A DNA stretch of 64,000 nucleotides from Bolinopsis microptera (Eukaryota > Ctenophora > Tentaculata > Lobata > Bolinopsidae): positions 7,542,902 to 7,606,901 of the forward strand of contig NC_087076.1 of the NCBI RefSeq assembly GCF_026151205.1. The letters run 5' to 3'. How positions within the stretch are numbered: the first letter of the stretch is position 1; the number at the start of each line of letters is the position of its first letter. The notes beneath the pieces are model-generated. The model did no database searches and was not told the origin of the DNA. It saw only the letters and a program-made list of their open reading frames with translations. Both the position numbers and the translations under genes were made by a program. This document shows, piece by piece, positions 5,837 to 61,768 of this stretch.

Positions 5837-5881
5837 TGGAGTGGATTAGCTACTAATAGTGGAGTGGATTAGCTACTAATA
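5837..5881 (+). repeat. 23-bp direct duplication just before a start codon
   Basis: The unit TGGAGTGGATTAGCTACTAA plus three bases occurs twice back to back, ending 7 bp before the ATG at 5889. Each copy contains TACTAAT, which looks like a splicing branch point, but no good acceptor lies between it and the ATG. Confidence 0.7.
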
Positions 5882-5888
5882 TATCATC

Positions 5889-7448: not shown

Positions 7449-7911
7449 TTCGAATTCTGATGTATAATAATAATAATATTAACCTTTGATAATCATAACA
7501 TGAATTCGATATGTAGCTTTTCGTTTCCTTTTTAAATTCATGAAGTGGAACCATATTCTCAACCTAATCTAAATTCAAATTTCTAATCAACGGATTGACA
7601 AGTTGACTTTACAAAGTTTACATGTTTTATTCTTGGGAAACGATTTCTTGTGTTTGAAATCTTACGACGCGATACCTTTTAACTTTTACTTCGATGATAA
7701 GTAGTTTAGATTCACGAAAACTGAGTAGGCCTAGGGTATCCTGCATAAAAGCAGATACTGTTCTAGTCGAAATGGGGTCGAATCTTGTTCGGAACTGAAA
7801 TATCATTTGTCCACTGCGTGTGGTACGGAGTAGAAAATACTAGGCACGAAGCCTGGTTATGTCAAATTTACCATACTGTATAATATGTGTTTTATCAACA
7901 TATTATATGTA

Positions 7912-8641: not shown

Positions 8642-8643
8642 TA

Positions 8644-37200: not shown

Positions 37201-37905
37201 CTGAATAGGAGGAGGAGGGGGACTGGGGGAGGACTGAGGATGAGGAGGAGGACTGAGGAGGACTGAGGACTGAGGAGGAAGAGGAGGAGGATGAAGAGGA
37301 GGAGGACCCAGGAGGAGGACTGGGGAGGAGGAGGACTGTTGAGGACTGATGAGGAGGACTGAGGACGAGGAGGAGGAGTAGGAGGAGGACTGAGGAGGGG
37401 AGGAGGAAGAGGACTGAGGAAGATCAGGAAGACCCAGGGGGAGGAGGAGGAAGAGTAGGAGGAGGAAGCATCTAAATGTTATTTCCATTTTTTCCCGTTT
37501 TTGTCCATTTTTGTCCGTTTTTGTCCGCTCTATTTTTTGTCCGTTTTGAAAATATAGGGTACCGAACGGACAAAAAACATGATCCCCCTATAACAGCAAA
37601 AATTGAACATTTTATTTAGCAATTTAGGTGTCCATTAATGTCCGCCTAAACGCTTAGTGGTGCCAGAGGAGTTGGACCAGACAGGTGTAACATAGCGACT
37701 ACTTTAACGCCGTCTTATTTCGCCTCTCTCTTCCACACTCAACCACCACTTAAGCGTTTATCTATGACACACCCCACAACACTTACCATCATCCTTAATT
37801 ACACATTTTGATTCCACTGGCATCCTCCCACAGGACTGCCATACCCCAGAGGTAGGCAAAGCATTCATATGCTATCCTCTCGTGGGCCAACCAGGCCCAG
37901 CCTCT

Positions 37906-37942
<37 letters not shown>

Positions 37943-40900
37943 TCCGCCTATGTCCGTCTATGTCCGTCTATGTCCGCCTATGTCCGCCTATGTCCGCCTA
38001 TGTCCGCCTATGTCCGCCTATGTCCTGTCCTTTTTGGATTCTATGAGACAAGCGGACATGGACGGACGTGACACCCCCCCTATACTTATATAGTTTCGGG
38101 GTGCGTTTTAAGTCATCACATGGCACCTTTTTAGTATTAATCGATGACCCAAACCATGAACAATCGGTAAATTTTTGATAACCCAATCGCAACTTTTTAA
38201 GGAAGAGTTAAGTACTTACTTGGATATATCCAGCGATAATGAGCTGGAAGAATTTCTGTAAACTACCATCCTCCGGTAAGAACTTCTTGAGGTTCCAGTT
38301 CATCTGAATAGTGGGAGCTAAGTCCCCGGACTTCCGTAATGCTCCACCGTTGTTCACACTATCCAGCCACAGCAGATTCTCCCAACTCTTTGTGATCTGA
38401 TAAAACGGAATAAGAATTAAATCAACAATTTAAAGGAATCGTTAAAAGAAAAAATTATTACCGCTCGCTATAGAGGACCAAGCTAATTTATTGAAAAAAA
38501 AGGATATTAAAACTTGAAGACACGAACCTGGAGTCCGATGCAGCCAAAGAGTTCCTGGGAAGTGATACTGTTGATGATGTAGTTAGTGTAGTTGTGGGCA
38601 TCTTCTATTGTCCGTTTCTTGGTGGCAACAATGATCCTGTTCATGTCACAGTACACGATAGAGGAGCCCAGTTTCTTGACCTGGAGATACAAATAAACAT
38701 ATACAATATACAATATACATTATACATTGTACATTATACATACAAATATACAATATACATACATAACGGTATTTGCGATACGGTAAATTGCTTATACTCT
38801 AGGTCACAACAATTAACAATGCTTCAGAATTTTGTTATTCTAGCGGAATAAGAGAGCCTCATTTGATCTCCCAAATTTTACAAAACAACAAACCTCCATA
38901 ATTAACTGCAGGAAGAGTTTCTTGATGCTGCTGTTAACCACCCTAGCTAGGGCGGGGTCGTGAAGAAGGGAGCTGGAGTTAGTCAACCAGCGGTAGAAAT
39001 GTATCAGTTGGGTATCAGCGTACTGGTTATTTCCACTCGATACCTGGGGTACGTGTTTGTGTGTATCAGTTGGGTATCAGCGTACTGGTTATTTACACTC
39101 GATACCTGGGGTACGTGTTTGTGTGTATCAGTTGGGTATCAGCGTACTGTTGTACTTGTTATTTCCACTCGATACCTGGGGTACGTGTTTGTGTGTATCA
39201 GTTGAATATCAGCGTACTGGTTATTTCCACTCGATACCTGGGGTACGTGTTTGTGTGGGGTACCGAGAGGAGGGGCCCTGAACCTACAGGCTACATTCTA
39301 ACTTGTCGATATTGAGCATTCTATATTCAGTACCAAATGAATCGAGGTTTACAATAAATCGAGGTACGGTAAATCGAGGTTCCATTTTATAAGGATTTAA
39401 TAGAAATAGTTTGGACAGTTTGTGTAGAGTAGCTGCTAAACGAGGGGAGGGGATGTAAACCTGGTGAAGCCAGCTGATAACCATAGATTTGAGGACTTTG
39501 AAAGCAGAGCTGACTTGTGCTGCCTCGTCGTAGGCGGTGATTGTCGAGCTGCCCTCTCCGCCGGTGATACCCACCTGGCATTTTCAAACCGTTATCACAC
39601 TTTCAGTTCCAATTCAAATTTAATAAACCCGATTGATATTCGATAAAACATAATATTATAACTTAAATTCGAAAGTTTGATTAACCACCAGTGATTGGAT
39701 AACAAAGTATGGATATTGGATAAATAACTACCTGTTTATTGACGGTATCTAGAGAAACAGTACTGACTCCCTCCAAATCATTGACGTGGTGGCTGTGTAG
39801 AATGGTGTTTACTGCTAACCCTTCTAGATTGATCTGTCAAAGAGAGATTATCACAATTGTGAAGTTGTGAGCGCAATTTCTGATGCAGTTAAACAAATGT
39901 AAATATACTTGCCAATATTAGCTTTAGAGTAGTAACCGTTTCTTGCTTATTCTACGAGAACAAGATATTATAGCCACGAGCTCGACAAACTTCTTGAGGA
40001 TATAGTTCGCAATTCTGTAACACTAAGAACTGTTTTGTCAGGTAACAGTTCACTGGCCATATTATACTTGATAGTATCCACAACTTATCTACAGTTATAA
40101 AGCCATGATAACTCCTATCCGCCCCCCCCCCCCCTTGAATGTACACCATCTTATCTCTAAGCCGACTAACCTCTACACAAACGGTGTTGTAAGCTGCAGG
40201 GAAGTTCAAGGAAAGCACGTGATCTTGATCAGAGCTGGTCAGCCTGTGGTCGTCCTCCTCCTTACCGCCCAGATCCGGCGCAGGTGCGTTACTCGCCCAC
40301 AGCACGTGGTTCTGCTTGAGGAGGTGGCGCGCGTAGAATATATCAGCTGCCAACATAGACAGATCTTCTGGCACATTGCCAATGGGCACGTGGACATACC
40401 GCGCGTAAGTTAGGTTGTGTTCTAACCACTTTAGACAACTGGAAATAGACGATAATCAGTTGATCAGTGTTAATTGCAGAGTTGCTGATATACATCAACA
40501 ATACGTCTCATTCAGTTAAAGGACATAAAACCATTAAAATAACTAACTAACGTCATGCATACGCCAAAAACGCATTTAAGTATCTACCTGAAATAATTTG
40601 AAAGCATTTTTCTTGCAGAATGTCTTTGCCAGTCTAACATCGCAATGGAATCGCTCGAATCAAACGGTACTTTAATAACCGGAAACGTGTTTATCGCTGG
40701 AACCTGAAACAGATTTAAATGCACTTTTCAATTATCAGAATACGTTTCAGTGGTGTTTTGAAAAAATGAAAACTGAAATGTCTGATAAAAATGTGAGCAA
40801 TAAATACTTTGTTGTTTTATGGTTTAGTGTTTACAAATCTGTAAGTTTCCTACCTGCATGCTCGCCTGATCGAATGACTGGAGAACCACAACAACTGATT

Positions 40901-43900
40901 TGTGTCTGTCCTTGTAGTCCGCCAGATACCGCTGTATTGCCCGAGCTGTACCTTTCATGTTCGCCTCAACTCTCACCTGAAACGGAACAAGTACTACAAA
41001 GTAGACAAAGTAGACAAATCCGGCGTTATAATGGTAGAGTTGCCTAAACGGTGCTTTACAGTTTACACCCAGCTATTATAGGTGTTTGTGTGGCACACAA
41101 TCAATATGATCGGGGGGTCATACTCGTAGGGATGTGTTGGTAGGATTGGAGTCACAGCTAATCAGGGTATGTAACTTCTTGATACACTGGTACGATTTGA
41201 TCCAATGCCTGATTTTGTGTATCGTACTGTCCTACTCCTATTATAACACCATCCCACACTGTTTAATGCACTCCATCTCAACCAGAGAGAGGAACAATCT
41301 CACGAGAAATGTTACAGTACGTGCTTTTCTTAATTTAATATGCATTTGTTGTGAGAGTTGTTAAACATTTTATAAATATAGCTTTATCATATCATGCACA
41401 CTCGGTTACAAAATTTAGATTAAGGCGGAAAGTTGACTCTCATATGATCGATCTGGCCAGGCCCATTCATAATATTCAACTGGTCGTCACGGAAATCGAC
41501 GATACTGCACGATAAAGTATTTTAAATTCTTTCTCGACGACTTGGGCTCATGCCAATGTGATGGATATATTAATCATAGAGCGATTGATAAAGCGGCAGA
41601 TTCAGAGATTGTTTTTTATCCAACTGCCTTTATATATCTTCTCTGCGACTAAAAGTAGATAATGGTTCTGATTCGTGTTTAAGAATCTTCTAGCTACGTG
41701 TTTTGTCTCAAACTTTCATTTCAATGAATTGTCGTGTCTTTCTTCTAGATAATGACTAAGATGAACCTCATTATATTTATAGCCGCAAACTTGGGCGGTT
41801 GCTAAACCTCGTTTCAGAACACCGGAAATTCTTCTTTTACTTAAAACCAGTATTCTCTCAGGATGAAGCCAATTTTAGCGTTAACGGCGCTAATTGTGTT
41901 GGCTGCTGACGCTCGAAGTACAAGACAAAGTGATGACGAAGAAAGGAACTATGAGGAACCGTTCCTGCCCAAAGATCCTATGGTAATCCAGCTTAACAAG
42001 AAAGACCATTATGAAAGCGATCCTCCAAGGATCACATACCGAGGCTGTCACAAGTTTTGTGTGGGAACTGTTGAAGGACGTCCGGATTCTGACTCCGTTT
42101 GGAACCCATTCAACCTGAGCGCAGACGAGCTTTACTACTTCCGATACGTCAAGGTAAACATGAGGGAGTGCAAATGGGCAGTCAACATGCCCCGACAGTT
42201 CCAAATCCTTGAACTCTTCTTCGCTGACGACGAGGAGGATAACGGTTACGTTATCTCCCGGCCAGTGGATCAGCTTACATGGGACAGCTTCCATTTCCTT
42301 ATCTACAATCCAGACAGTGAACCAAGTAGGAACTTTAGGGTACGATGGACAAGTTACATGAACGTTTGTGATGCTAAAGAAACTGAGGCTCCGATAGATA
42401 CACACTACGAACCAAATGCCTTTGATCCAGCCGAATACGTCAGCGTCTTCCAGGATTACGTGGAGCCTTGACTTCAACCAGACAAACAGTTTTATTATTA
42501 TTCCCATTAATCAAATATTTAATACAGATATAATGCTATTTCAATTCTTAGATAAAGAATAGCGGACTTACCTTTATAGTGGCATTATTTGGAGATAAAA
42601 GTGTCAAATTTCTAAGAATTTGCAGTAATTTCTAAGAATTTGCAGTAATTTTGCTTCATATTAAAATAATGATTCTGACACGAGACTGGGATCTATTTAT
42701 AAATATCGTATGCACGTTGCTGATGTACTTGTAGATTGAAAATTTTAAGATTCTTGATTTACGTAAATTTGCAATAAGATGAGAGCAGTCTGAACTCTGA
42801 ATATAATATGACAAATATAAAATGTATTCATCAAGTTATGACATGAAAAAAATGCTTCTCTTTTCTTCATAACCATACATTAAATCATGAGCTAACCTCG
42901 AATCCCATATCATTTGGAGGGAGATACGTATCAGATATCCCTTCTGCCTGGTCGCCGTATATCGACTTATAATGATTCCCTGGAAATAAATGATGATCTT
43001 CAGTTTCGCGAGTCTGAATCAGAAAGTTGCCTTATACTCTTTATACTTTTATAGAATAAAGCACTTGTTTGTCATTCCCAGGTACAAAACTAGAAAGTTG
43101 AGCATGAAAACCTATAAAAGAAAAGTTAACAAGGAAAAAGCACATAAGCAACGAATACTAACCAAGATTTCCGACACTATTAGTCTTAGCGGAATCCGAA
43201 ACAAATACTGTAGTCTTATGTTCGGCTTTAGAGAAGACGCCAACAAGGTTCCTGCCAGCATTGCTTATCTCGTAGATGTAGAGGTACTGAACGTTGCTCA
43301 TGTACGAGATTTCAGCTTCTGATTTGAACTGCAGGTTGGTTAACTGAAACGTGTCCGAGGTGTCGTTTGTTAGAGACCTGTAGAGAGAGGGGAAATTAGT
43401 AGATTAGTTGAAAGATTTAAATACGGAGAGGAAATCAGACGGTAGAATCTTTAGAGTTAAATTTTCAAAGATTTATGTCAGCGTACAATTCGACAGTTTG
43501 TCAGAAATTGTATCATAATTGAAGATTTGAGCACCAACCTGAAGCGTGCATGTTCGGAGGTGACAGAACAAGCACAGCCAAGTTCCACAAGAACTCTGAA
43601 TAGAGCCGGGACATTAGTCTCGTACACTCCCTCCACATCCGGGCCAGCTAGCTCAGTTGATATCTCACCTGGGGAGGGCATTAAGTGTTGTGGTAGAATT
43701 CTGAACCGCTGTACTAGCCTTCCTTAGTTTCTAACCAAAATTGCGGGTCATAGAGTTATAGAGCGAATGAGGCATGAAATATTGTAGGGGAGAAAACTAG
43801 CAATGGAAAATTTGTATGAGATCGTATTCTAACGGTAAAATTAGAAATGAGAATAGAGCTATTTCAGGATAAAATAATGAGATAGTAACCTGCGTGCTGC

Positions 43901-46900: not shown

Positions 46901-49900
46901 CGATGCTGACGACAAAATTAACAGTAAACAAGTACGTGTAAGCAAGGTCTGTATCTATGACAATAAGCTAACAGTGAGGCGTGAGCCTTCTCGCTGGCTT
47001 AATAAGATCTTGGGGAGTGACGAAAAACTACTTAATTCACAGAAAAGTATAAAACACGCGACACGAAAGTATCACGTGACTGTTTCACATGGCAGCAGGA
47101 GGTTTCTCACCTTGCCGAACATATCTGTGATCTTTTTCTGTTGGAACACGTCGTTCTTCTCCGCCATCATCTTATAAAGCCAATCTGGGTGCTGGACCCT
47201 CGGTACTGGGTTCCTTACTCCTGGGAGAGAAGGGGCATTTAGTTTTACCTCATAGAGACGGTTCCTTTCGGGATAAGTCTGCGAACTTAGATTAGATTTA
47301 AGGTTAAAGGGTTAATATCTTCCCAATTGTGCTAGTACACCGGTCACTGTGTCTTTTGTCTGTAAAACTGACGTTGTACGAGGGGTTCATTGATTAGCTC
47401 GGAATATGGAGCTGCTCTGGTGCAATGAGCTGGAGCCTGCGGCCTGCCCTGCCCTGGGTCATAAGGGAATGAGCACTAGACAGTAAGTTTCTCTACCATC
47501 ACTCGCCCCATCTCATAATAGAAATATAATGAAGCTGACAGTCGCCACATCCCTCATTATGTCAGATCTGTAAACCCTCGCCTAACTCAGCTGCATTATA
47601 AACCAATCAATGTCCTCTTAGCTCGACCAGCTGTGCAAAGAAATAAATAAATAACCTCTCAGATATTAAGATTGAAGGGTATCTAACTCATGACCCTTTC
47701 TTTACCAGGTGTATTCACCAACCATCTCACGTCTCATTGCTAACAGTCTAGGTTACCGTAAAACTGACATTCTGTCGACAACTCCATTTGAGTTACATTA
47801 TCCGGAATTGTTTTTTCTTCTTTATATCATTCAGGAGGTGTTACACAACTCCGGCGTAATTTAGATCAACTGTTGAACACTGATATTATATCGGGCGGTG
47901 TTAATGATAATAGCGATCGCCAGGTTTCCCTCACGAAAAACTCCAATGAGACACAAAGAAATTGCAATTTAAATATTTATCTCTTATTGACAGGAGGTGA
48001 CCGGGACATGATTTCAGGCCTGACCGGGACCGGGACCGGGACCGGGATACAAAATGTGACTTGACCGGGACCGGGACCGGGATAGCTCAAAATTGAGATT
48101 ATCAATTTACCGGGACCGGGACCGGGATAGCTCAAAATTGCCAATCCCGGTACCGGGATTCCCGGTACCGGGAATTCCGGTCGATTACTGGTTAATTCAT
48201 GATCATAATTTATTACTCAAACTTGTTTAGCAATTTTAAACATTGTTGTATTTGGCTCAGAGGATGTTTAAAGATGAAATTCACAATGAATGAAAGGAAA
48301 AACTTGAAATCACAGTGAATGAAATTATGTAAAAGATCCCGGTCAAATCCCGGCTAATTTGAGTGATTGACCGGGACCGGGACTGGGACCGGGACCAAGA
48401 ATCCCGAATTAACCGGGACCGGGACCGGGACCGGGATCATAAATAAATAAATCAGCATTTGACCGGGACCGGGACCGAGATAGCTCAAAATTGCCAATCC
48501 CGGTACCGGTATTCCCGGAACCGGGAATCCCGGTCACCTCCTGCTTATTGATCGTTCAACGTTCCCATTTTTCGGTTAATACATTTTTTTCTTTGATTGC
48601 ATCTCGTATGGCCGCATGTTTTCTAAGACTAATAATGTTGCCGACAAAATAATTTTATCATTCGTTTGTAGCTTGTTTTTGCAGTCATTAAATTAGCATT
48701 ATATCATTTAAATTATATTAGGCCGGCCTCATGTAATGGATGCGTCAATGAAGGTATGACCCTCAGTTAAATTGACTATAGATTCCCAGTAAAACTGGTT
48801 TGAATCAGCTAATATTCTAACTTCATCATATCGATTGACAGGAGTACAAGATGTTCCTTCTAGTGATCTCTCTTCTGGTTCCTGCTGTCCTCTCTTTGGA
48901 GGTCCCCTGTGCGGAGTATCTGATAGTGGAACGATGGAACAACGGATGGAAGGGAAACCTCAATATTCCCATTCCAAAAGACACCAAGCGATGGAAGATA
49001 GACGCCTCATTCGACAACAAAATCCAAGCTGGGGACTTCTGGGCGGGGCAAAAGTTCTGGAGCAATGACAAGCTGTCGGTCCGAGTTGTAGGAAACGACT
49101 GGTCAGCTAAACAGAAGGCAGGAGACGTGTTCAAGACAGGTTTCACAGTCAACTACCCTGAACACGGACCTGAAGTGAACTTTAAGACCCTGCAGATAAC
49201 CCTGTGTTGGGCTGATGGTAGTGGGTGTCAGACCTGCAGCCCTCTGGAGGTGGAACCTGAGGAATGCACCGGTGGATTCCAGGGAGCTGAGAGCGAGGAG
49301 GAGGAAGTGAGTCGGGGGCAGGTTCGGATCATGTCAACAGAATGTTACTCTAGCATGCCGGATGTTACAGTGATGTTCTCCAATGACGTGGAGCAGGTCG
49401 AGGTAGGTGAGAACTTCTCAGCAAGCTGTACCGGCAATGAGTGTATCGTGTCAAGTGAACAGGGAGTGGGGATAAACGAGCTGATCATAATTGATCTGAA
49501 ATACCCGTCCAACACTAAAGTGGTCGGAGTTCTCTTCATAGGACAGGAACTATGTGACGTAGAACCTGAACAGATGAGGGTGGATCTCTCACTGGACCCA
49601 ACTCAGGAACCAGGGCCTACATCTCCTGCCATCACCACTGAAGGACCAGATCTATTTGACGGGTGTGCCATGTACGAGATAGTGGAGACCTGGAGGAATG
49701 GCTGGAAGGGAAACCTCTCAATCCCCATCAAGCATGATACTTCCAAATGGCGGATTGATGCAGAGTTCAACAAGCCAGTAGTGGCTGATTTCTGGGCTGG
49801 GTTACCTGAGAGATGGAGTAACGGTGGAACCAGGGTGGTAGTTTTAGGACAGGACTGGTCTGCAACCCAGAAAGCTGGTACCTTCTTCGTTACCGGGTTC

Positions 49901-52900
49901 ACTGCCAACCACAAAGAAGGAGCCAATGTCTACATCAAGTGGATGAAGCTGAAGAAATGCTGGGCAACTGGAGGATGCACCACATGTGACATTGTTAAAG
50001 AAGAGTGCTCAAGCCGCCGCGCAGGAGCTATCAGCATCTCCAAAGTAAAGAATGGTGTCGCTCTCTCAAAATCTCTCTCCGGAGTGTTCGCTACGGAGGT
50101 GAAGGAATGCTCAAACGACATGCCCCCAGTTGAGATAGAGTTCTCCAGCAGGGTCAAGAGGCTGATTGTTGGAAGAGGACGTTACCAAGCAAGCTGCTCC
50201 AAGTACAAGTGTACCATCTCCACCACCAAGCCCATCAAGATGGTAGCTGGGACTCAGCTGAAGATCAAGTTTACAGCGGTATTTTGGGAAAAACCAGGCA
50301 AACTTGTGGGCCTGAACTATGGAGACGAAGATATGTGCCACGACTAGGGCTCTAAGAATAAAATAGGGACAATCACAATCTAATTCAATAACGATATTTT
50401 ATGTTAAATTACCATTCATCAATTTTTATCTGACACTGGTGTTTTATTGTTAATAAATACTAAAATTCTCATAATGCGTTCTAAATCTATAATTAATGTA
50501 TAAAAAGGGATCCACAAAAAGAAAATGAAGAACAATATACCTTGAAGAGCAGCTGGAATAGTTATAATCTTCATGATAGCACTGCCAAACCGCTCCTTGT
50601 AATAATCCCAATCCAAAATATCCCTGATATCGAAATCAGTAGCTCCTGGGGTCTTCAGCCAGCGTCGTAGATAATATCTTCTTACAGCTGGTTCTGCTTG
50701 GAATATTGCTACCGGGATCGCTCGCTCCGTAACGGGAGTTCCTTCCGGCTTCCGGGCTATGATAAACTTGCAATTTAGGCCTTTGTCTTTGGTCATTTGA
50801 TCTCCGAGAAACTCAGCGATACGTTTCGCAGTGCTGAAAAATGGAGCCTAGTAAGCTAGAGGGAGTTTTCATTTCGTAATATAAAATTTATAGATTATTT
50901 TGACTATCATGAACTGTTTATTAGCATCAAACGCAAAAAAACAGTATTTATAACTAAGGCCAAGGTCTGCATCATAATTATTATAACGATCGAGCCTGGC
51001 AACTGGCCCAATTTCTGAACTGGACTTCGAATTGGACTATAAAACGTTGTTACCAAACACAGTAGACTCCTTCCCTTGAACCTCGTTCCCAATACCCAGG
51101 GTTTTGCTATATTTTATATCTAGTAAAGTTGTAAGAATCTAAACTGACCTAATCGATGTACTCTTCTGTGTTCCGTACTCTTCTAGTTTTTTAGACATGC
51201 TCCTCTGAGAACTGATCAAGTCAAACAGTTCATCGTCTGGCATGTTCTCTGCTTTGGAGAACAATATGTCCAACCAATAGTCCGCCACCTGAATTAGCAA
51301 GCTAAACTATAGTGAAACTAAAGTGAAATTAAAGCTAAATTAGGGTGAAATTAAAGTGAAACTAAAGTGAAATTAAAGCTAAATTAAAGTGAAACTAAGG
51401 TGAAAGTAAAGTGAAACTAAAATTAAATTAAAATGAAACTATAGTGAAACTAAAGAGTAACCCGACAAAGAAAGGCATTCGTATTAGTTTTTCAAACCTT
51501 AGCTACGGCAGCATAAACTTCTTCTATATTGTTGCCCTCCAGGAACGCGCTGAACACAGAGGATTGGAAGTTCTTTATCAGCTGTAACTCTCCTCGCCGT
51601 TTTAACTGCAATATCAACAACTTAGGAAATAGGATATTTCAAGTCTCAACCCTGACCTCTAGCTCATTCTTCAGACAGCTGCCCTTGGTCTCCGAGTGAC
51701 AACATTAACATTTCACTTATGACTTCCACACGTGCAGACTTATTAGGGGTAGTGATTAACGAACCTCAAATCCTTTCAGTTCAGCCAAGCTTCCATCAAA
51801 GTTAAAGACAGCGTATCTCTTCTTCAGCTTCTTACCCTCCTCCTTGGCTGCAGGAAGTATCATTGCCAGATATGGTCCGTCCACCTGAAGAGAGACATTA
51901 GTAAGTATTAAATATAAATTTAGAAATGAATTTTTAACTGAGTCAATGCGCAGCGGAATCGAAACTAGATTTAACCAATTTAAAGAAAGGGACCTTGAAC
52001 ATACCTCAAAGAAGATACTGTTTTCAGATTTGACGGAGTAAGAAAGAGTCTTAGGATCCTCCAGATCGTGGTACTGATCGTTAGTGAAGTGTCTGAATAC
52101 CATGACATTCAACATGGCACCAGGGTATGAGATCGTTACTTTCTGTTTTCTGGGATCTAGAGTAATCAGTGTAATTCGTTGCAGAATAAAATGGAAAAGC
52201 TATTTTATTTTTTGTTCTTGTTTTAAAAATATACCATGATTTGCTTGTTAAGATGGGAATAGCTGAATAAAGTAAGATGTTGTTCACGCCTATACAAAAC
52301 AGGAGACTCATAATATGGCGGAATAACTGGAGTAAGGACGGGCAAGATTTCAAATACAACAAAATCCAACCACAACACAATAAAACACAATATAAACACA
52401 ATATAAACACAATATAAAAACAATATAAACACAATATAAACACAATATAAACACAATATAAAAAATATATAAACACAATATAAACACAATATAAACACAA
52501 TATAAACCTGGGTGGTTAGTTTTGAACTCATAGTTCTCGGGGAATGATCCAGGAAGACAGCACCAAATACCATCAGTATCAAGTTCCAGGGGTCTTCCTA
52601 TCTGCTCTACTATCTCTCGTGCTTTCTTGATTATGTTTGCTCCTGTGAGACAGAGACTTTTATTTTTAATTGAGTTATGTAATCAGCTGGACACCAGATA
52701 TGGAACATTTTTGATTCAAAACTTTTTATTCATAGTTAAAGCTGAAAAGCTGAACCACTTCAAATATCTAAGTTTTCTCTCCACCCCTTATCTAAACCTG
52801 TGTAACAAACGATACCAGCCATCTCCATACTATACCACCGAGCTCCCTTCCTCATAACATAGCCGTAGAAAGAGTTGAGGATGCACTTGTGAGCAAGCTG

Positions 52901-55900
52901 CAGAGAATCGTACAGCACCACCTGCCCTGCCATCCTCTTAATCTCTGCTGGGTCTCCCTTCTTCACTGCCTCCCCGTGCTTCTTGGCAGCCTGCAAATTC
53001 ACGGCTCATTATCTTGGTGAGATACTACGAGTTGTGTAAAATAGAGAATTCCGGTATCACAGCCCTAACATGTTACCCGTACATTAATTTCCCAAAATAG
53101 AGAATAAAATGGGATAAATTCCCTTGTTTTACCTGTTTGTTAAGAGCTTTGTACTCGTACCGCCGGTCTCTGAATGACTTCACAGTGTTGATATAGAAGG
53201 GATGTTCACGCTGGCAGATGGTGCTGTGACGGTTTTCTGTTCTAGTTACTTTCACCTGGAGTACAGTCGTGTAATTGACACGCTCTATATTGGGGGGGGG
53301 GGGGTGACATGTCTCCAATGTCTCCAATGTCTTTTGTCTTTTTTGAAAAGATAGGGTGCAGAGACATGTCCTGGAGACATTGGAGACATTGGAGACACAG
53401 CTTTTGGAGACATTGGAGACATTGGAGACATTGGGGACATTGGAGACATTGGAGACAAAGCTTTTGGAGACATTGGAGACATTGGAGACACTGGAGACGT
53501 AGATGTATGATTGGAGAAGGAGGAGGATCTAGGAGGAGGATGACCCAGGAGGAGGACTCAGGAGGAGAAGGAGGAGGATGAGGACTCAGGAAGAGGACTG
53601 ACAAGGAGGAGGACTGAGGTGTACTGAGGAGGATGGCTGAGGACGATGGCTGAGGAGGATGGCTGTGGAGGATGGCTGAGGAGGATGGCTGAGGAGGATG
53701 ACTGAGGAGGAGGACCTAGGAGGAGGAGGACCCAGGAGGAGGAGGACCCAGGAGGAGGACTCAGGAGGAGGAGGAGGAGGACCCAGGAAGAGGACTCAGG
53801 AGGACAGAGAAGGAAAAGGACTGAGGAGTACTAAGGAGGATGGCTGAGGAGGATGACTGAGGAGGATGACTGAGAGGGAGGAGGAGGAGAACAATGACTG
53901 AGGAGAAGGAGAAGGAGGAGGACCTAGGAGGATGAGGACCCAGGAGGAGGACTCAGGAGGAAGAGGAGGAGGAGGACTCAGGAGGACTGAAAAGGAAGAG
54001 GACTGAGGAAAACTGAGGAGGAGGAGGACTGAATAGGAGGAGGAGGAGGGGGACTGGGGGAGGACTGAGGATGAAGAAGACTGACAAGAAGGATGAGGAG
54101 GAGGACTGAGGACTGAGGAGGATGACGAGAAGGAAGACCCAGGAGGAGGAGGGATGAGGACTGAGGAGGATGGCTGAGGAGGATGACTGAGAGGGAGGAG
54201 GAGGAGGAGGAGGAGGAAGAGGACTGAGGAGGAAGAGGACTGAGGAGGAGGAGTAGGACTGAGGAGGAGAAGGAGGAGGACCTAGGAGGAGGACCCAGAA
54301 GGAGGACTCAGGAGGAGGAGGAGGAGAACTCAGGAAAAGGACTGAGAAGGAGGAGGACTCAGGAGTACTGAAGAGGTTGACTGAGGAGGAGGAGGAGGAG
54401 GAGGAGAAGGACTGAGGAGGATAAGGAGAAGGTGGAGGAACTAGGAGGAGGATGAACCAGGAGGAGGACTCAGGAGGAAGAGGAGGAGGACTCAGGAGGA
54501 GGACTTAGGAGGAATGAGAAGGAGGAGGACTGAGGAGACCTGAGGAGGAGGAGGAGGACTGAATAGGAGGAGGGGGACTGGGGAGGACTGAGGAGGAGGA
54601 GGACTGACTCGAAGGATGAGGAGGAGGACTGAGGACTGAGGACTGAGGAGGAAGAGGAGGAGGATGAAGAGGAGGAAGAGGACCCGGGAGGAGGAGGACT
54701 GAAGAGGACGATGAGGATGAGGACTGAGGAGGAGGAGGAGGACTGAGGAGGATGGCTGAGGAGGATGACTGAGAGGGAGGAGGAGGAGGACTGAGGAGGA
54801 GGAGGAGAAGGACTGAGGAGGAGAAGGAGGAGGACCTAGGAGGAGGAGGACCCAGGAGGAGGACTCAGGAGGAGGACTCAGGAGGAGGAGGAGGACTCAG
54901 GAGGAAGACTCAGGATAACTGAGGAGGAGGAGGAGTGAATGGGAGGAGGAGGGGGACTGGGGAGGACTGAGGAGGAGGAGGACTAAGGAGAAGGATGAGG
55001 AGGAGGACTGAGGACTGAGGAGGAGGACTGAGGAGTACTGATGAGGATGGCTGAGGAGGACGGCTGAGGAGGATGGCTGAGGAGGATGACTGAGGAGGAT
55101 GACTGAGAGGGAGGAGGAGGAGGAGGAGAAGGAGGAGGACCTAGGAGGAGGACTCAGGAAGAGGACTCAGGAGAACTGAGGAGGAGGAGGATGAGGACTG
55201 AATAGGAGGAGGGGGACTGGGGGAGGACTGAGGAGGAGGGGGACTTGGGGAGCACTGAGGAGAAGGAGGAAGACTGACGAGAAGGATGAGGAGGAGGACT
55301 GAGGAGGAGGACTGATGATTGAGGAGGAAGAGGAGGAGGATGAAGAGGAGTAGGAGGACTCAGGAGGAGGAGGAGAACGACTGAGGAGGACTGAGGAGGA
55401 GGAGGAGGAGGAGGAGGAGGAGGAGGAGGAAGAGGAGGAGGAGGAGGAGGAGGAAGAGGAGGAGGAGTCTCCAAAAGCTGTGTCTCCAATGTCTCCAATG
55501 TCTCCAAAAGCTGTGTCTCTAATGTCCCCAATGTCCCAAATGTCCCCAATGTCTCCAATGTCTCCAAAAGCTGTGTCTCCAATGTCTCCAATGTCTCCAA
55601 TGTCTCCAATGTCTTTGTCTTTTTCGAAAAGATAAGGTGCGGGAGACATTGGAGACATGTCACCCCCCCCCCTATATTGTTGTAATCATTATACCAAAGG
55701 TTGGAGCGGATCATAGATTACTAAATCCCATTCCAGAATTTAGACTAAACGTTATCACGAAAGAATATGGATTTAAAAATGGAAAAATATGGTTAAAACT
55801 TATCAAAAGTCAACATTATTACACAAAAATGTTTAAAGTTTCAAACGTCAAAGTTCAAATAAACCTTGCCGTAAGCTCTCTTGCAGTACTGAGCAAGTCG

Positions 55901-58900
55901 CTGTTTCTCCACCTCAGCCCTATCCATTGGACTCAGCTCGTGGAAGGATCGAGCAGGTTCCCCGGGGACCTTGGAGGGGATCTTTTCGCTCTCCAGCTGC
56001 TGTTTGATACTCTGGTACTCTGCCCGGGACGCTGGCTGGAAGTCCCCGCGCCACGCCCACTCCATCGTACGCTGACATCTGAAGAAATGCGAAGTATTTG
56101 AGATACTGACGTGGGTCTGATAGAGTCGAACAGCTACTAAAATGTGGAGACTGTGCTTAAAAAGACAAAAACCTCTCACTAAAACAGTTGTTTACCTTGC
56201 GCCGGGTTTATTGAAATCACAAGCAGCACACGTGACCTCATCAATCAGAGCGGAAGGCTGCAGTCTGTTGGTGAGAATGATGTTGGGGTACATAGCCCCC
56301 ACGTCTAAATGATATATCATAGGCTTCTCCAGTCTGTTGGGAGTATCTCTCAAGTCCGATAATATCTTCTTTATCTCCCCTATTACCTGTCAAGGTTACT
56401 CAATACTCATCGTTATATATTAAAACATGTCACAACTCACCTATGGAGAATGAGTAGGAAACTGCTTTCGAAAAACGAATCTTAAATCGACAGATATAAA
56501 CCTCATCAAAATTTGTCACATATTCCATGGGTACTTTCTCCTCCGTCTCTATGGAAAATTTCATCGTTTCCTCCACTTCGTCGATAAGGGTTTGAAACGC
56601 CGACGGAGTAACTCTGAACTTTATCGGAATATCCGCCCGGAAAACTCCTGAGGTGGACCATTTATCATCATTCATCATACTATCGTCCTACGCGTACGGT
56701 TACTTACAATTACATAATTTAACTGACTTAAACTAAACTTGAACCCAAAATTCAGTTTCCTCATCTCATGGGATCTGAAAACAAACCTGACTCCAGCACT
56801 TCAATATGACCCCCAACATACCTGACTCCAGCGCTTCAAAATGACCCCCGACATACCTGACTCCAGTGCTTCATCATGACCCCCAACATACCTGACTCCA
56901 GCGCTTCAACATGACCCCCGACATACCTGACTCCAGCACTTCAATATGACCCCCAACATACCTGACTCCAGTGCTTCAACATGACCCCCGACATACCTGA
57001 CTCCAGCGCTTCAACATGACCCCCAACATACCTGACTCCAGCGCTTCAACATGACCCCCAACATACCTGACTCCAGCGCTTCAACATGACCCCCAACATA
57101 CCTGACTCCAGCGCTTCAACATGACCCCCAACATACCTGACTCCAGCGCTTCAACATGACCCCAGACATACCTGACTCCAGCGCTTCAACATGACCCCCG
57201 ACATACCTAACTCCAGCGCTTCAACATGACCCCCAACATACCTGACTCCAGCGCTTCAACATGACCCCCCAACATACCTGACTCCAGCGCTTCAACATGA
57301 CCTCCAACATACCTGACTCCTGCGCTTCAACATGACCCCAACATACCTGACTCCAGCGCTTTAACATGACCCCCAACATACCTGACTCCAGCGCTTCAAC
57401 ATGACCCCCAACATAAGTCTCAGTCTCCAGGAGATGCCCGTCGTCAGTCAGCTTGTTCAGGATTGCTCTCTGCTTGTTAGGAAATATTATATTTTCCCTG
57501 AAACAATGGAATCGTTAACTCTATCATAAGAAACAGTAACAGTAGGATAATTAATCGCGAGATTTATCGATCTACCAAGATAAACTCCTTCATCAAAACA
57601 GTTCAGAGGAACCCCCCCCCCCCCCCTTAATATATTGAAGGAACTCACCAAACACAGAAACAAGGACTAACCTCTCAGCCTGGACCATGAGAAGGGCTTC
57701 ACAAAGAGTCCCTGATCCCTTCCTTAGAACCTCGTCAGGTGGCATGGGTATAATGGTGCACAGAGCGAAGGTGAAGGGGTGCACGTATTTCATGTAGAGG
57801 TAGTAGGTAGCCACTGCGTCGGACACACTGTATGTGCTCATGTCCTGTGGAGTATGGCTAAGTAATGAGGTTGCCCCCCCCCCCCCCCCCCCCCAGTATT
57901 GCACTGTTCTCTGTTAGTAGGGGATCTGAGAGGCAACGATTTCTCAATTCTAAGTTTAAAACTGCTGTCTCTTATTAGGGAATCTTCATTTACTGGACTC
58001 AAACGTTTGAAAAGTGATAAAACAAATAAAACATTTAGCACCTATTATCAAGAAACAAAGCCTTGCTAAATGGAGCACTGCATTGTCTCGCCCTGTGGCA
58101 ACTATAAAAGGGAGTGCTTCAACCAGGAATTTAGTTTTTATAAATCTTTCTGAGCAGTCACAAAATGATGAAGCTACTATTGACTGTACTGCTGTTCGCC
58201 GTAGTTTTGATTTGCGATGCGGAGGGTGAGAAAAAGAAAGGAAAGGGCAGGAAATTTGTTCTCTTCGACAACGAATTGGAAGGTCTGTATTTTATGTAGT
58301 TTTATGAAATTTTTCAATTAAAATCTTAGAAGTGATGGCTTCTATATAACAGCCCCCCGCTTGAGTATCACAAAGTTTTTAATGTTCAATTATTCTAACT
58401 TTTATGTGATTTTACTATTGCAGATGGTTCAGTAGAAGATGATACGACAGGATTCGAGAGTCTGGTGAAAAGAGATGCACCTCGCAGGAAGAAACCACAT
58501 GTTTTGTTTGACAAAGAAGATCAGTAAGATTGTAAGAGTGATAGAAGGAGATTACTGACACGGTGATGAATCAGCCAATGTGGCAGAGGAGGGATGTGTC
58601 TAAAGAATGATGACTGATTTATTGATTACTCGGGTTTAAAAATCGATTTTCAAACACTAAAAAAATGAGTTACTTTTGCTTTTGGTGTTTTAAATAGACA
58701 TCAGTAAGCTATTCCTTACTCCCCTGTAATCTATATTGCTTAAATTGATATCAATATTATTTCTTATCTCTATATCGAGTGTTTTACTGTTTCCCTACCT
58801 GAGGCTGTTCAGCAGCCATTCGGCACATATCCTCCGGGTCAACCTCAACCGGATCATATCTGAGCTTAGCTTTAGCAACAGCTTTGAGATTCTGGGAACC

Positions 58901-61768
58901 TATAGGGAGGTAACTGTCACGCTGAACCCAGTAGAACGCGTCCAAGTGTGAACAGTGCCGTGATAGCCATTGTCCTGATCCTGACTCCTCCTTGAACCCT
59001 ATCTCTTCGTACATGTTCAAACCTGGACAGGAGATTAGTTTGAGATGGCAATTTAAAAAATACAGTAGCAAAGTTAACGTTTTATGATTTGACATGATTA
59101 TTTCAATCCTCATAGCAAAAAATACAATGACAATCCAGATTCGAAGGCTGGTGAATTTAGAATGACGATCGATTTTTAAACAATGTTTCATAATTCACCA
59201 TGAAATTCAGCTCGTGCGGAGACATAAGGGAAATCGAAGAAATCCCCGTTGTATGTAACGATAATATTAGGCGCTAGCTCCTGTATGTGCTCGAAGAACT
59301 TCAGTATCAAGTTCTTCTCATTTTCCTCATTTAGAATTATAAAGGGTCCCTCAAACTCCGGTCTGGGAGTGTACTCGAAATCTTCTATATCTTCCCCCAC
59401 AACCTGGCCAATAAACACCATTATAAAATCGTATTTTTAGCATCTGTAACATAAACATGTTTATCTTGCAATCTATAAAATAAAACACATTAAAAACGAA
59501 CAAATTTACGAAAACATCAAATTAAAAAGTGTCCGCAAAACCTCTCTGTTAGTGATCAGATAGCCCTGGCCGTCCACCATGTAACTAATCATCATGATAG
59601 AGTCAATAGCAGAATCAGGGAATTTGAGCGGCAGTTTGGTGGTCTCGATATCGTAGGCAAAGACCACCGGGTCAGGCGGGTCGATTATGTCTGGCCGTTT
59701 TGTGAGAATAGGATCGTCCTGACCTTGACCAACTACTGAGTACCTGCGAGTTTGGAAAATAGCTCATTATACTCTAGTAGCTACTCCCTGCTACAGGCTA
59801 CTGGAGTATTAGGTGGACGTGGCACCCCCCCCCCCTCATTAGGTGAGATTAAAAATCAAGTTTCTGCCATGAAATTACATCATTTTGTTTTGACTACCTC
59901 TCAGAACAATACATAAATATTTCGCTCTACGATGAAATAAAATAGAATCGATAATTAGAAGAAGCCTAAAGGCCGATAGGCTTCCCTAACATACCAATGA
60001 GCTACGAAGAGACTCTTATCAATGTTAGACCGCACATTATAGGGTACATCATACTCTCTCATGTCTATAATGTGTGTGCTGTGATCTGTATGTACTTTTG
60101 GACCTGAAAAATAAAAAACACGTTAAAAGTAGAATAATAATTAGTGCGTCTTACACCTAAACCACAGCCCCAAAAGGCAACCGTAAAACTCTCAAAATTA
60201 CAATACATTTCTGCTAAATCACAACATCAAGAAGTTTATCTCGGCGGTTAAACAGTAGCCGTTAGCACCCGGAAGAGCGGGATGTTACCGTAGTTAGTTT
60301 TGGTGGCGTGATGAGGTGCCATCATCTCTCGATACACATCTTCCTGTTTATCTTTCGTCTTGTTCTTGTTCACAACTGATGTGATGTATTTCCTTACCTA
60401 GCAGGACATGCCACCTTTAATAACTGTCTTAAATTAAGAAGCTTGAATATTGGATGTAAGATTTTTTTTAAAGATATCGTTGCGGATATATATATTCTGT
60501 AATACATTTTCATTTTCAGTAGTACATACAAGGATGTGCATTGTGCCTAGTAAACATCAAAGAAAAACTGTACCCTATTTAAAATTGGGGGACTTACCTT
60601 CAGTAAGTCACCGTTCGTCAAGAAAGAGAGTTTGATGTATATTTGCTGAAGTCCGATCAAATGGTTCTTGAGGTCTAAGTCTTCCTTTGATACCTGCACC
60701 ACCCCCATTGCAGTCCCACTGAATCTTTTACTGCAGAATTTTGTCCATTATTGTGAAATTCAGTCAAGCGAGTAGTGATCACTACCAGTTATATTGATTC
60801 GTTTGGAAAATCAGCACCATCTTTTAACTAATTTGCTATTTGGGATGGCAATATTTTCGGAAATGAAAATTTCTCGTACCAAGGCCAATATGGAAAGTTG
60901 ATTATCAAGAGAAACGTCATTGTCGGACGTGAGGAGAGCGAGGACTCCTCAAAAGCTCTAACTACATTAAATATATATGAATAAAACGCTGGCAACCGTC
61001 TCTCGGTTATTTCAAACAGTTACCTGAGGAAAGAGCAAACATCTTGTTCAGCACCGGCAGTGGCCCGTACGAAGAAGTACGGTTTGTACGGGATGGAAAC
61101 TTTGAACCTCCCACCATCCTCTGAAAAATTTCTTAATAATGGGATCTGCGTTCCACTTTAAAGTGCTTAAACATTTAAACAGTAAAATATTTAAAACATG
61201 GTTGATAAGCTGGAAAACATAAGATATTTCCCACTAATTATATAACCTTGTATGAAATAGTAATCCATGGCCGATACCAGTCTCTTCTCCTCGTCGATGA
61301 TCTCGGTTGGTTGCATGTTGACCATCCAGCCCACCTTTTCAGCAGGCTCGGTATGTCGACCGTACCCGAACCTCAAGTCCAGGTTATCATTGAACCTGTG
61401 TAGATAATTATAATTGTCCAGGTTATCATTGAACCTGTGTAGATAATTATAATTGAATAATTGTTTCTTATCAGATTCAACAATAAATATGTTTTTAAAG
61501 AAGAAATAATTGTCCAGATCTCGATCCGGATTTAACGTAGGTCTCTGCGTTTGTGTTTCTAAGAATTGAAACTCCAGGACTAATTATCAGCTATAAATTT
61601 CAATGACCAGATGTCATGCGATTATTCCACATAATGACATGTAAATGGAAGCCACAATGATATTAATTACCTGGCAGTTCGGACCCTGGCTTCATAGTTC
61701 TCATTTTGATCAGTTTTATCCTCATCCCGAGTAGAGCCAGCTCCGTAGCGTTGGTATCGCCCCGACAT
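34286..61768 (-). CDS. POLE: DNA polymerase epsilon catalytic subunit
   Basis: Complete leading-strand replicative polymerase with 3'-5' proofreading; nuclear. Forty exons, all phases joining, 2,195 residues (human 2,286). Exons: 61768-61671, 61395-61247, 61120-61024, 60730-60598, 60397-60289, 60103-59995, 59743-59542, 59403-59199, 59022-58799, 57844-57672, 57497-57382, 56647-56502, 56386-56196, 56078-55865, 53255-53133, 52990-52798, 52642-52508, 52156-52005, 51884-51765, 51605-51498, 51288-51149, 50833-50541, 47220-47111, 46301-46139, 45802-45690, 45514-45329, 44049-43890, 43668-43539, 43377-43163, 42979-42897, 40976-40854, 40703-40588, 40438-40171, 39833-39732, 39574-39461, 39043-38894, 38680-38528, 38396-38220, 35205-34986, 34860-34286. 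Intact motifs: exonuclease [13 protein letters not shown] (exon 7), TYNGDFFD (8), [11 protein letters not shown] (10); polymerase [15 protein letters not shown] (13), [17 protein letters not shown] (16), ELDTDGIWC (17); C-terminal CysA/CysB zinc sites CNKCSNC, WLCAHC, LLCSKC, YCMC (40). Exon 24 carries an AT-hook-like KRGRPQ. Several exon edges are duplicated into introns, three introns host opposite-strand genes, and two introns carry elements with long purine cores. Confidence 0.95.
35254..38079. mobile_element. composite element A in POLE intron 38 (hAT-like, purine core)
   Basis: The ends are G-run + TGTCATGTCC (35254-35270) and GGACGTGACA + C-run (to 38079), flanked by CTATACT at 35247-35253 and 38080-38086. 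Each end holds a palindromic module: TGTCCGCCTA-type repeats, a spacer CTTTTTGGATTCTATGAGAC, then GGACATTGGC-type repeats. The spacer is in the same orientation at both ends (about 35298 and 38027). Between the modules lies about 2 kb (35515-37470) of nearly pure G+A made of GGAGGACTGA-like units and a higher-order block with GGATGGCTGAGGAGGATGAC. There is no coding capacity. Long Pro/Ser/Leu-rich open frames on the minus strand are repeat artefacts. Confidence 0.7.
37649..37940 (+). mobile_element. putative SINE-like retroposon with poly(A) tail inside element A
   Basis: Unique sequence of about 260 bp ends in about 34 A (37907-37940). It is bracketed by TGTCCGCCTA at 37639-37648 and 37941-37950, as expected for retroposition. 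However, that decamer is also the repeat unit of element A, so the target-site duplication is not independent evidence. No clear tRNA A/B boxes were seen. Confidence 0.4.
39001..39256 (-). repeat. 62-bp tandem array built from the POLE exon 36 acceptor
   Basis: Four units (39001-39062, 39063-39124, 39125-39194 with an 8-bp insertion, 39195-39256). Read on the POLE strand, each contains 19 bp of intron ending CGTACCCCAG and then 43 bp of exon 36 coding sequence starting GTATCGAGTG. Only the unit at 39001 joins the rest of the exon. Using any of the other three acceptors (39105, 39175, 39237) runs into a stop codon. Confidence 0.9.
41771..41781 (+). promoter_or_regulatory. possible TATA box of the nested 202-aa gene
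   Basis: TTATATTTATA lies about 82 bp before the ATG at 41863 on the same strand. Position and sequence suit a core promoter. AT-rich surroundings weaken the case. Confidence 0.4.
41863..42471 (+). CDS. secreted orphan protein nested in POLE intron 30
   Basis: 202 residues in one exon, antisense to POLE, between POLE exons 30 and 31. Residues 1-17 ([17 protein letters not shown]) form a signal peptide. The mature part is acidic, with four cysteines (GCHKFC, REC and NVC) that could form two disulfides. It contains alternating hydrophobic stretches ([36 protein letters not shown]), suggesting a beta-rich extracellular domain. I do not recognise a family. CTCTCAGG immediately before the ATG looks like a 3' splice (possibly trans-splice) site. 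The opposite strand also has an open frame of similar length, but it lacks these features. Confidence 0.75.
   Translation: MKPILALTALIVLAADARSTRQSDDEERNYEEPFLPKDPMVIQLNKKDHYESDPPRITYRGCHKFCVGTVEGRPDSDSVWNPFNLSADELYYFRYVKVNMRECKWAVNMPRQFQILELFFADDEEDNGYVISRPVDQLTWDSFHFLIYNPDSEPSRNFRVRWTSYMNVCDAKETEAPIDTHYEPNAFDPAEYVSVFQDYVEP
44190..44959. mobile_element. mariner-type MITE in POLE intron 26
   Basis: Perfect 38-bp terminal inverted repeats (outer motif CAGGGTGGGCCAAAAGTCAG) at 44190-44227 and 44922-44959 are flanked by TA at 44188-44189 and 44960-44961. No transposase is recognisable. It separates exon 27 from the partial copy of exon 27 at 45050. Confidence 0.8.
45050..45086 (-). repeat. partial copy of POLE exon 27 with its acceptor
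   Basis: 37 bp match 44018-44054, the first 32 bp of exon 27 plus its TTCAG acceptor, with two differences. Both differences (CGA to CGC and GTA to GTG) would be synonymous. The copy has no obvious full exon downstream, although TAC|GTGAAC could act as a donor and define an in-frame 24-nt microexon. Confidence 0.85.
47991..48543. mobile_element. composite element C in POLE intron 22 (hAT-like, CCGGGA repeats)
   Basis: The inverted ends CAGGAGGTGACCGGGA (47991-48006 and 48528-48543) are flanked by the 8-bp duplication CTTATTGA (47983-47990 and 48544-48551). The interior holds GACCGG tandem repeats and two direct copies of a palindromic module (about 48118-48180 and 48468-48538): CCGGGA repeats, spacer ATAGCTCAAAATTGCCAAT, then inverted CCCGGT repeats. 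There is no coding capacity. The right end lies about 300 bp upstream of the nested CBM2-like gene. Confidence 0.8.
48851..50347 (+). CDS. secreted protein with two CBM2-like modules, nested in POLE intron 22
   Basis: 498 residues, one exon, antisense to POLE. A signal peptide (about 1-16) is followed by a twice-repeated unit of a CBM2-like module and a Cys-bearing beta module. The CBM2-like modules lie at about 20-120 and 272-372, with matching [13 protein letters not shown] and [18 protein letters not shown] and RIDAEF, DFWAG, and [10 protein letters not shown] and [10 protein letters not shown]; conserved tryptophans are those expected to face polysaccharide. The second modules (about 155-235 and 410-498) share [16 protein letters not shown] and ASC. 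No catalytic domain is present, so binding of cellulose, chitin or another glycan in the extracellular space is the likely role. Family 2 assignment rests on pattern only. TTGACAG lies 9 bp before the ATG. Confidence 0.85.
   Translation: MFLLVISLLVPAVLSLEVPCAEYLIVERWNNGWKGNLNIPIPKDTKRWKIDASFDNKIQAGDFWAGQKFWSNDKLSVRVVGNDWSAKQKAGDVFKTGFTVNYPEHGPEVNFKTLQITLCWADGSGCQTCSPLEVEPEECTGGFQGAESEEEEVSRGQVRIMSTECYSSMPDVTVMFSNDVEQVEVGENFSASCTGNECIVSSEQGVGINELIIIDLKYPSNTKVVGVLFIGQELCDVEPEQMRVDLSLDPTQEPGPTSPAITTEGPDLFDGCAMYEIVETWRNGWKGNLSIPIKHDTSKWRIDAEFNKPVVADFWAGLPERWSNGGTRVVVLGQDWSATQKAGTFFVTGFTANHKEGANVYIKWMKLKKCWATGGCTTCDIVKEECSSRRAGAISISKVKNGVALSKSLSGVFATEVKECSNDMPPVEIEFSSRVKRLIVGRGRYQASCSKYKCTISTTKPIKMVAGTQLKIKFTAVFWEKPGKLVGLNYGDEDMCHD
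50357..50362 (+). promoter_or_regulatory. poly(A) signal of the nested CBM2-like gene
   Basis: AATAAA 10 bp after the stop codon, on the strand of the nested gene, about 180 bp before POLE exon 22. Confidence 0.55.
51295..51450 (+). repeat. 12-bp-type tandem repeat in POLE intron 20
   Basis: Imperfect tandem copies of AAACTAAAGTGA and variants fill most of the short intron between exons 20 and 21. Confidence 0.75.
52378..52506 (+). repeat. 11-bp tandem repeat at the POLE exon 17 donor
   Basis: About eleven copies of AAACACAATAT run up to the donor of exon 17 (52508). On the POLE strand the intron therefore begins with the repeat itself, reading GTTTATATTGTG. Confidence 0.85.
53293..55671. 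mobile_element. composite element B in POLE intron 14 (hAT-like, purine core)
   Basis: The ends are G-run + TGACATGTCTCC and GGAGACATGTCA + C-run, flanked by the 8-bp repeat CTATATTG (53285-53292 and 55672-55679). Each end has a module of TGTCTCCAA-type repeats, spacer CTTTTT(T/C)GAAAAGATA, then GGAGACATT-type repeats, with the spacer in the same orientation at both ends. The centre (about 53515-55470) is almost pure G+A and shares the block GGATGGCTGAGGAGGATGAC with element A, so the two belong together. No coding capacity. Confidence 0.75.
56787..57381 (-). repeat. 35-bp minisatellite built from the POLE exon 11 end and donor
   Basis: About 17 tandem units of 35 bp, plus the exon copy itself (57382-57415). 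On the POLE strand a unit starts GTATGTTGGGGGTCATGTTG and ends GGAGTCAG. Its last 34 bases equal the last 34 coding bases of exon 11 (codons for [11 protein letters not shown]). The junction CAG|GTATGT is the functional donor and recurs in every unit. The first intronic bases of intron 11 are therefore themselves a copy of exon sequence. Extension to donors beyond the second unit meets a TGA. Confidence 0.92.
58103..58110 (+). promoter_or_regulatory. TATA box of the nested peptide gene
   Basis: TATAAAAG lies 55 bp before the first ATG at 58165, on the coding strand of the nested gene. This is the best core-promoter match in the window. Confidence 0.65.
58165..58527 (+). CDS. small secreted peptide precursor-like gene nested in POLE intron 9
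   Basis: Two exons (58165-58282, 58424-58527) with a 141-bp GT-AG intron; 73 residues, antisense to [25 protein letters not shown] is a signal peptide. The mature part carries two related segments, [12 protein letters not shown] and [11 protein letters not shown], each preceded by basic residues. An acidic spacer contains [10 protein letters not shown], a plausible prohormone-convertase site. Duplicated short motifs between dibasic sites suggest a neuropeptide or peptide-hormone precursor. There is no C-terminal Gly for amidation. An alternative is a small structural or antimicrobial secreted protein. A second in-frame ATG follows immediately at 58168. Confidence 0.7.
61379..61456 (-). repeat. 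39-bp in-frame duplication of the POLE exon 2 acceptor
   Basis: Two units (61379-61417 and 61418-61456). Each has, on the POLE strand, the intron end TTATCTACACAG and the exon start GTTCAATGATAACCTGG. The proximal acceptor starts exon 2 at 61395; the distal one starts at 61434. Because 39 is divisible by 3 and no stop intervenes, using the distal site would insert 13 residues. Confidence 0.88.

Follow-up and report, generated by a model that had tools for sequence, protein, structure and literature searches.

Introns can be gained by tandem duplication of an exon segment that contains AGGT (Rogers 1989; ATP2A1, Hellsten 2011; both as told in a passage of PMC4974935), where the duplicated coding sequence supplies the donor and the protein is left unchanged. 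Several tandem AGGT exon copies can also form intron sequence, as in a known case in which the intron spans two or four duplicates. In the potato RdRp gene, a single duplication of an intron–exon unit recruited ten bases of the new intron 5′ end from the exon, and a cryptic GTAAG became the donor (described in the same part of PMC4974935). The choice among identical donors, on the other side of the problem, has been followed in minigenes. As reported in the relevant section of PMC9225289, only the upstream donor was used in human minigenes that had identical donors and introns of 365 nt, and near-equal donors in human cells follow an exon-proximal rule when introns are long, while short introns favour the donor nearest the acceptor.

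The array described here, at the border of exon 11 and intron 11 of POLE in the comb jelly Bolinopsis microptera, shares features with each of these systems. As in the Rogers and ATP2A1 cases outlined in PMC4974935, duplicated AGGT coding sequence supplies a donor and the protein is unchanged; by contrast, the acceptor and the 3′ part of the intron appear to be pre-existing in POLE, where the duplication results in a shifted donor and a longer intron. Several copies form intron sequence, as in the tandem AGGT case, but here 17 copies appear to have been added to a pre-existing intron, and a genome-wide set of similar arrays accompanies them. Exon bases were recruited to the intron 5′ end as in potato RdRp, which has no array in the account given. 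Identical donors compete for one acceptor as in the minigenes of PMC9225289, which carry two designed donors, whereas POLE has 18 natural ones in an essential gene. Minisatellites at exon ends or in comb jelly introns were not found in openly licensed PubMed Central articles, judged by titles and abstract openings.

On the minus strand of the window (i.e. the whole analysed stretch of 64,000 nt) is POLE, the gene for the catalytic subunit of DNA polymerase epsilon. A hand-joined prediction of the N-terminal part (733 residues) matches human POLE residues 20–735, the next predicted stretch matches residues 745–1187, and pieces of the C-terminal half match also. Introns were placed by a purpose-written spliced alignment to human POLE. 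The model has 22 introns in its first part and 13 in its second (35 in total, human residues 1188–1266 and those beyond 1927 being left out), with a median length of 185 nt. Intron 11 follows the first base of human codon 550, and the conserved reading frame runs on without a break when its first donor (D1) is spliced to the present acceptor. The human gene carries an intron after c.1686, i.e. after codon 562 (human intron 15; given in a part of PMC5972231). It lies 12 codons away and in another phase, and thus is not at the comb jelly position (codon 550, phase 1).

Table 1. Features of POLE with their positions in the window, and sampled arrays elsewhere in the assembly that abut an exon with homology (a slash marks the splice border)
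Feature	Position	Strand	Description
POLE exon 11	57382..57497	-	116 nt, ends ...GAGTCAG; spliced alignment to human POLE, reading frame
POLE exon 12	56502..56647	-	begins GA GTT TTC (GVFRADIP...); spliced alignment, reading frame
POLE intron 11	57381 to 56648	-	734 nt, phase 1
35-bp array	56780..57415		18.2 copies, 94% matches, score 1123 (TRF)
Unit 1	57381..57415	-	last 34 coding bases of exon 11 and intron base +1; donor D1 CAG/GTATGT
Units 2-18	56786..57380	-	17 intronic copies, 595 nt, 18 substitutions, two units with a 1-bp indel
Unit 3	57312..57345	-	34 nt (1-bp deletion); donor D3, G at 57312
Probable ancestral intron	56648..56786	-	139 nt, from donor CAG/GTTTGT (D18) to acceptor; not array-like
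Acceptor-side duplication, POLE intron 1/exon 2	61377..61455	-	39 bp twice, 19 exon bases
Acceptor-side array, 33rd of 35 modelled POLE introns	39000..39257	-	about four ∼62-bp copies, acceptor and 44 exon bases
11-bp array, POLE intron 17	52374..52507	-	starts exactly at intron base +1 (GTTTAT...), 0 exon bases
L010			SLC6 transporter; Pfam 5.1e-33, both flanking exons joined
L013			dynein heavy chain; Pfam 5.5e-7
L017			Wnt; Pfam 1.2e-7
L023			WD40; Pfam 4.1e-10
L011			TTC8/BBS8; PDB 7.4e-21
L016			sushi (weak); Pfam 0.002 for upstream exon alone, below cut-off; 5.6e-9 joined to next exon
L030			SHMT; Pfam 1e-23
L028			class-V aminotransferase; Pfam 2.4e-7
L026			C2H2 zinc finger; Pfam 1.6e-5
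L027			kinase (weak); Pfam 1e-4, below cut-off

The array at this border is confirmed. The initial annotation had described about 17 tandem 35-bp copies of the last 34 coding bases of exon 11 filling the start of the intron, and TRF together with cutting into units recovers this array: 18 units, of which the first is coding and the other 17 are intronic. Each unit corresponds to 34 coding bases (11 residues and one base) plus intron base +1, and all intronic units are 35 nt long except units 3 (34 nt) and 5 (36 nt). Compared with the exon copy, substitutions in the intronic units amount to 3.0% and number 5, 5 and 8 at codon positions one, two and three, respectively. The exon copy is identical to the array consensus (0 differences) and its 11-residue peptide is identical to human POLE residues 539–549, which identifies the coding sequence as the source of the array. 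Unit 14 has the same sequence as unit 18, and T6C is common to units 13, 15 and 17, a pattern that points to re-amplification within the array. With head-to-tail units in the ∼10–60 bp range and high identity, the array has the structure of an intronic minisatellite. In the 264.65-Mb assembly, this stretch was found once by a DNA search that passes over simple repeats and common words. Exons 11–13, used as a protein query, matched POLE itself alone, and no retrocopy was seen.

More than one consensus donor is available for a single acceptor: all 18 sites have the donor consensus, which bears out the earlier count of about 18 competing donors. The sequence CAG/GTATGT had been annotated in every copy and is present at 16 of the 18 sites, D6 being TAG/GTATGT and D18 CAG/GTTTGT. 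The functional donor had been described as exon-derived, and this holds save for base +1: D1 is a hybrid in which TATGTT comes from Tyr-Val codons, as the Rogers model has it for the donor, and the G comes from the old intron. On scores built from the 34 other POLE donors, a small set, CAG/GTATGT (11.4) and CAG/GTTTGT (11.75) both rank above all 34, and TAG/GTATGT (8.87) ranks above 15 of them. Judged against this small set, the array donors are not weak sites, nor does D1 stand out among them. Because most donors are the same, there is hardly any local mark of the correct site; the sequence just upstream is repeated too, which leaves position as the main distinguishing feature of D1. Donor choice by RNA structure was considered and rejected, as the fold of the first seven units is poorer than that of every one of 200 shuffles (z = +5.0), with no sign of a special structure.

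Reading frames were tested by joining exon 11 with 0–17 extra units to exon 12. The frame is open for D1 and D3 only, and the other 16 donors lead to a stop. The expectation that the first or a very near donor alone would keep the frame was therefore nearly right: D3, the sole open one of the 17 extra donors, adds 69 nt (23 amino acids) and stays open because of the 1-bp deletion in unit 3.

We propose that the array arose by duplication across a splice border, which pushed the donor inward and left extra donors that are tolerated, and that the same process has acted genome-wide; we assign this reading a probability of about 0.72. An initial 35-bp tandem duplication across the exon 11/intron 11 border would have joined the first G of the intron to the Tyr codon TAT to give GTATGT, a junction visible in the sequence, so that each new copy would bring its own CAG/GTATGT. 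The old donor CAG/GTTTGT would have been displaced downstream with each copy and would now lie 595 nt inside the intron, as the order of the sites and the donor forms of POLE suggest. Later slippage or unequal exchange may then have raised the number of units to 18. The extra donors may be tolerated because the splicing machinery takes the exon-proximal copy, and the same process would have given rise to many donor- and acceptor-side arrays across the genome.

That such arrays persist in conserved genes suggests use of the exon-proximal copy, i.e. the first donor and the last acceptor. Growth of the array lengthens the intron, and a longer intron would, by the human-cell rule, tip the choice toward one made across the exon, and with it toward the first donor. 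Since intron 11 measures 734 nt from D1 and 139 nt from D18, the long-intron and short-intron rules predict opposite outcomes. POLE introns are short, so the human short-intron rule would pick D18 and break the frame, which counts against our explanation.

The POLE array is one of many such arrays in the genome and not a one-off. We counted donor words occurring three times at short spacing in the whole assembly, on both strands, and used the reverse of each word as its control. The counts were 731 versus 97 for CAGGTAWGT, 1271 versus 73 for AAGGTAWGT and 1488 versus 46 for CAGGTTWGT, i.e. a 7- to 32-fold excess in overlapping windows rather than arrays, so that the counts are clumped, and for words whose single occurrences may also be more frequent. 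With a scrambled word the count was 0 triplets, and with its reverse 157. As single words in the window outside the array, CAGGTAWGT and AAGGTAWGT occur twice each, their reverses 0 and 0 times, the scramble 0 times and its reverse once. Among the matches listed, distinct arrays number seven on C1 and C2 for CAGGTAWGT, five on C1 for AAGGTAWGT and ten on the first 16.3 Mb of C1 for CAGGTTWGT. Scaling by length gives roughly 38, 50 and 162 arrays, respectively, or about 250 in total, as a crude extrapolation.

We then inspected 26 arrays with their flanks, which are all of those among the matches listed (16/16 for the first two words and 10/10 for the third). The first set comprises 15 arrays on C1 and C2 and one on C3, and the second was chosen before the flanks were seen. 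Ten of the 26 arrays abut an exon with Pfam or PDB homology (Table 1): six of the 16 in the first set and four of the ten in the second. For eight of these ten exons, the match exceeds the curated cut-off or is a strong one in PDB; for the sushi domain at L016, the best stretch of the joined match falls in the next exon. Next to another 11 arrays there is only an open frame whose border resembles a splice site, as judged by eye, on the donor side (L008, L012, L019, L020, L025, L029 and L032) or on the acceptor side (L014, L015, L021 and L033). An adjoining exon was not seen for the remaining five (L009, L018, L022, L024 and L031). Homology searches covered the arrays other than L009, L018, L022 and L031, which have no clear open exon frame alongside. 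Pfam gave no match for L008, L012, L014, L015, L019, L020, L021, L024, L025, L029 and L033, and a single match below its cut-off for L032 (E 0.034); a PDB search with the L020 exon gave no match.

The exon-derived part of each array was measured as the bases before D1 that match those before D2. It is 45 at L008, 47 at L016, 50 at L028 (12 against D3) and 31 at L030, and 3–19 in the other donor-side arrays with an exon, L032 excepted: there, counting begins within the array and the measure breaks down. POLE, at 34 exon bases, falls in the minority of arrays whose coding part is long. High values also occur in some arrays that have no donor-side exon (45 at L009, 26 at L015, 200 at L018 and 25 at L022), where the measure reflects the repeat only. 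At L017, the true donor may be a GTAAGG just before the first counted site.

Extra donors rarely keep the frame in these arrays either: across 14 donor-side arrays whose exon frame is open, 15 of 267 do so (15/179 in eight arrays and 0/88 in six), nine of them in L008, two in L011 and four in L023. This count set aside L010, L017 and L032 (because of structure or an uncertain first donor) as well as acceptor-side and unassigned arrays. The 48-bp unit of L008 is open through ten donors. The locus itself (L008:2261-3300) is one small open frame with a 24-bp repeat at its start, followed by the 48-bp array of exon end plus donor; ten consecutive donors would keep the frame, and a variable repeat protein, for which homology was not found, could be made. 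The SLC6 transporter intron (L010:2019-2525) has another appearance, resembling a tandem of whole mini-introns that ends in an acceptor, with a donor and an acceptor in each unit (CTACAG/GTATGT), like recursive splice sites.

Further arrays lie at splice borders within POLE itself (Table 1). In the 33rd modelled intron, the last of the four acceptors alone keeps the frame open. At intron 1/exon 2, two acceptors lie 39 bp apart, and the upstream one, if used, would add 13 residues in frame. Three of the 15 intronic arrays in POLE cross a border, compared with 2.7 expected if position is neutral and borders are tolerated; in this small test, no special targeting of borders is needed. The neutral expectation is 2(u − 1)/(l + u − 1), where u is the unit and l the ancestral intron length, and the value of 2.7 was obtained for 15 arrays with rough ancestral lengths and a 132-bp period for the acceptor array (∼2.4 by hand with 62 bp). 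This class of arrays could be accounted for by frequent tandem duplication together with short introns and tolerance.

The initial annotation had allowed that duplication of coding sequence might either create or extend an intron, and extension is the part that stands, along with the exon origin of the array and of most of the present donor. Under the Rogers model, an unbroken exon with CAGG would have been duplicated to give donor and acceptor at once, with the acceptor and the rest of the intron derived from the duplicated segment. The position of the human intron, 12 codons off and in another phase according to the part of PMC5972231 concerned, agrees with such an origin, as does the unbroken conserved frame from D1 to the present acceptor. 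However, copies of the unit cannot be recognised in the acceptor or in the 139 nt that precede it: this tail begins GTTTGTTTTCAG... and runs to the acceptor, and its likeness to the unit is not above chance (568 of 1000 shuffles score as well). Furthermore, a good local donor comes directly after the last unit. T occurs at +3 in 18 of the 34 other POLE donors, which makes GTTTGT a usual donor form for this gene, and D18 can thus be read as the donor with which a short intron of the usual kind started out. Before the duplication, an intron of normal length was therefore probably already in place, as far as the sequence can tell, and creation of the intron by duplication, which we consider quite improbable, was set aside.

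Alternatively, the array might be a regulatory device, in which copy number or leaky inner donors set the POLE level via frameshift and mRNA decay. The loss of frame at 16 of the 17 extra donors would suit such a role, as would a human POLE variant by which 47 bp of intron 15 are retained and which was found with a second faulty allele in patients (reported in a section of PMC5972231); tolerance of the array in a comb jelly would be notable for the same reason. However, unrelated genes have such arrays too, and border crossing in POLE is no commoner than the neutral expectation, which makes a regulatory function unlikely. An assembly artefact, in which the assembler would have expanded or miscounted a real but short duplication, has a still lower probability and seems very hard to sustain. 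The B. microptera assembly was made by wtdbg2 and polished with short reads (as stated in a part of PMC10232365), so that the copy number is uncertain, but the units hold distinct, interspersed variants and the same architecture is found at unrelated loci.

The POLE array is a natural test of questions usually addressed with designed constructs, namely the choice among identical splice sites and intron-first versus exon-first recognition. It has 18 near-identical donors in a row, of which the first and third alone are open, and many more arrays are available in known genes. It also offers a concrete route by which introns lengthen with coding sequence, as a step between intron gain by tandem duplication and ordinary intron growth. 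More tentatively, our results might mean that (i) splice junctions are common, tolerated seeds of minisatellites (∼250 donor-word arrays, a rough figure, with 21 of the 26 sampled adjoining a known or possible exon); (ii) exons feed their own ends into introns, which grow from the exon side; and (iii) this works only with a strict preference of the splicing machinery for the exon-proximal copy, at donors and acceptors alike, despite short introns. If true, this would amount to exon definition in a lineage that branches near the base of animals, with hundreds of natural arrays in which to test it.

Several other features were observed in the window. Two long GAG/GGA-rich repeat tracts occur in the POLE region (53371-55614 and 35334-38025). 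Short-unit arrays border each of them in opposite orientation (TGGAGACAT/TGTCTCCAA and GGACAT.../ATGTCC...), and the tracts are possibly one type of mobile or fold-back repeat. Open frames on the opposite strand are present in three POLE introns: one of 502 amino acids in intron 22 (48839-50347), with a CBM2-like cellulose-binding domain (Pfam 4.2e-7); one seen by eye in intron 9 (about 58160-58527); and one, also by eye and with no Pfam match, in the 28th modelled intron (41845-42471). Elsewhere, two similar open frames lie in tandem at 5880-12280, the first with sulfotransferase domains, and each contains a small tandem repeat whose unit length is divisible by three (66 and 48 bp; TRF).
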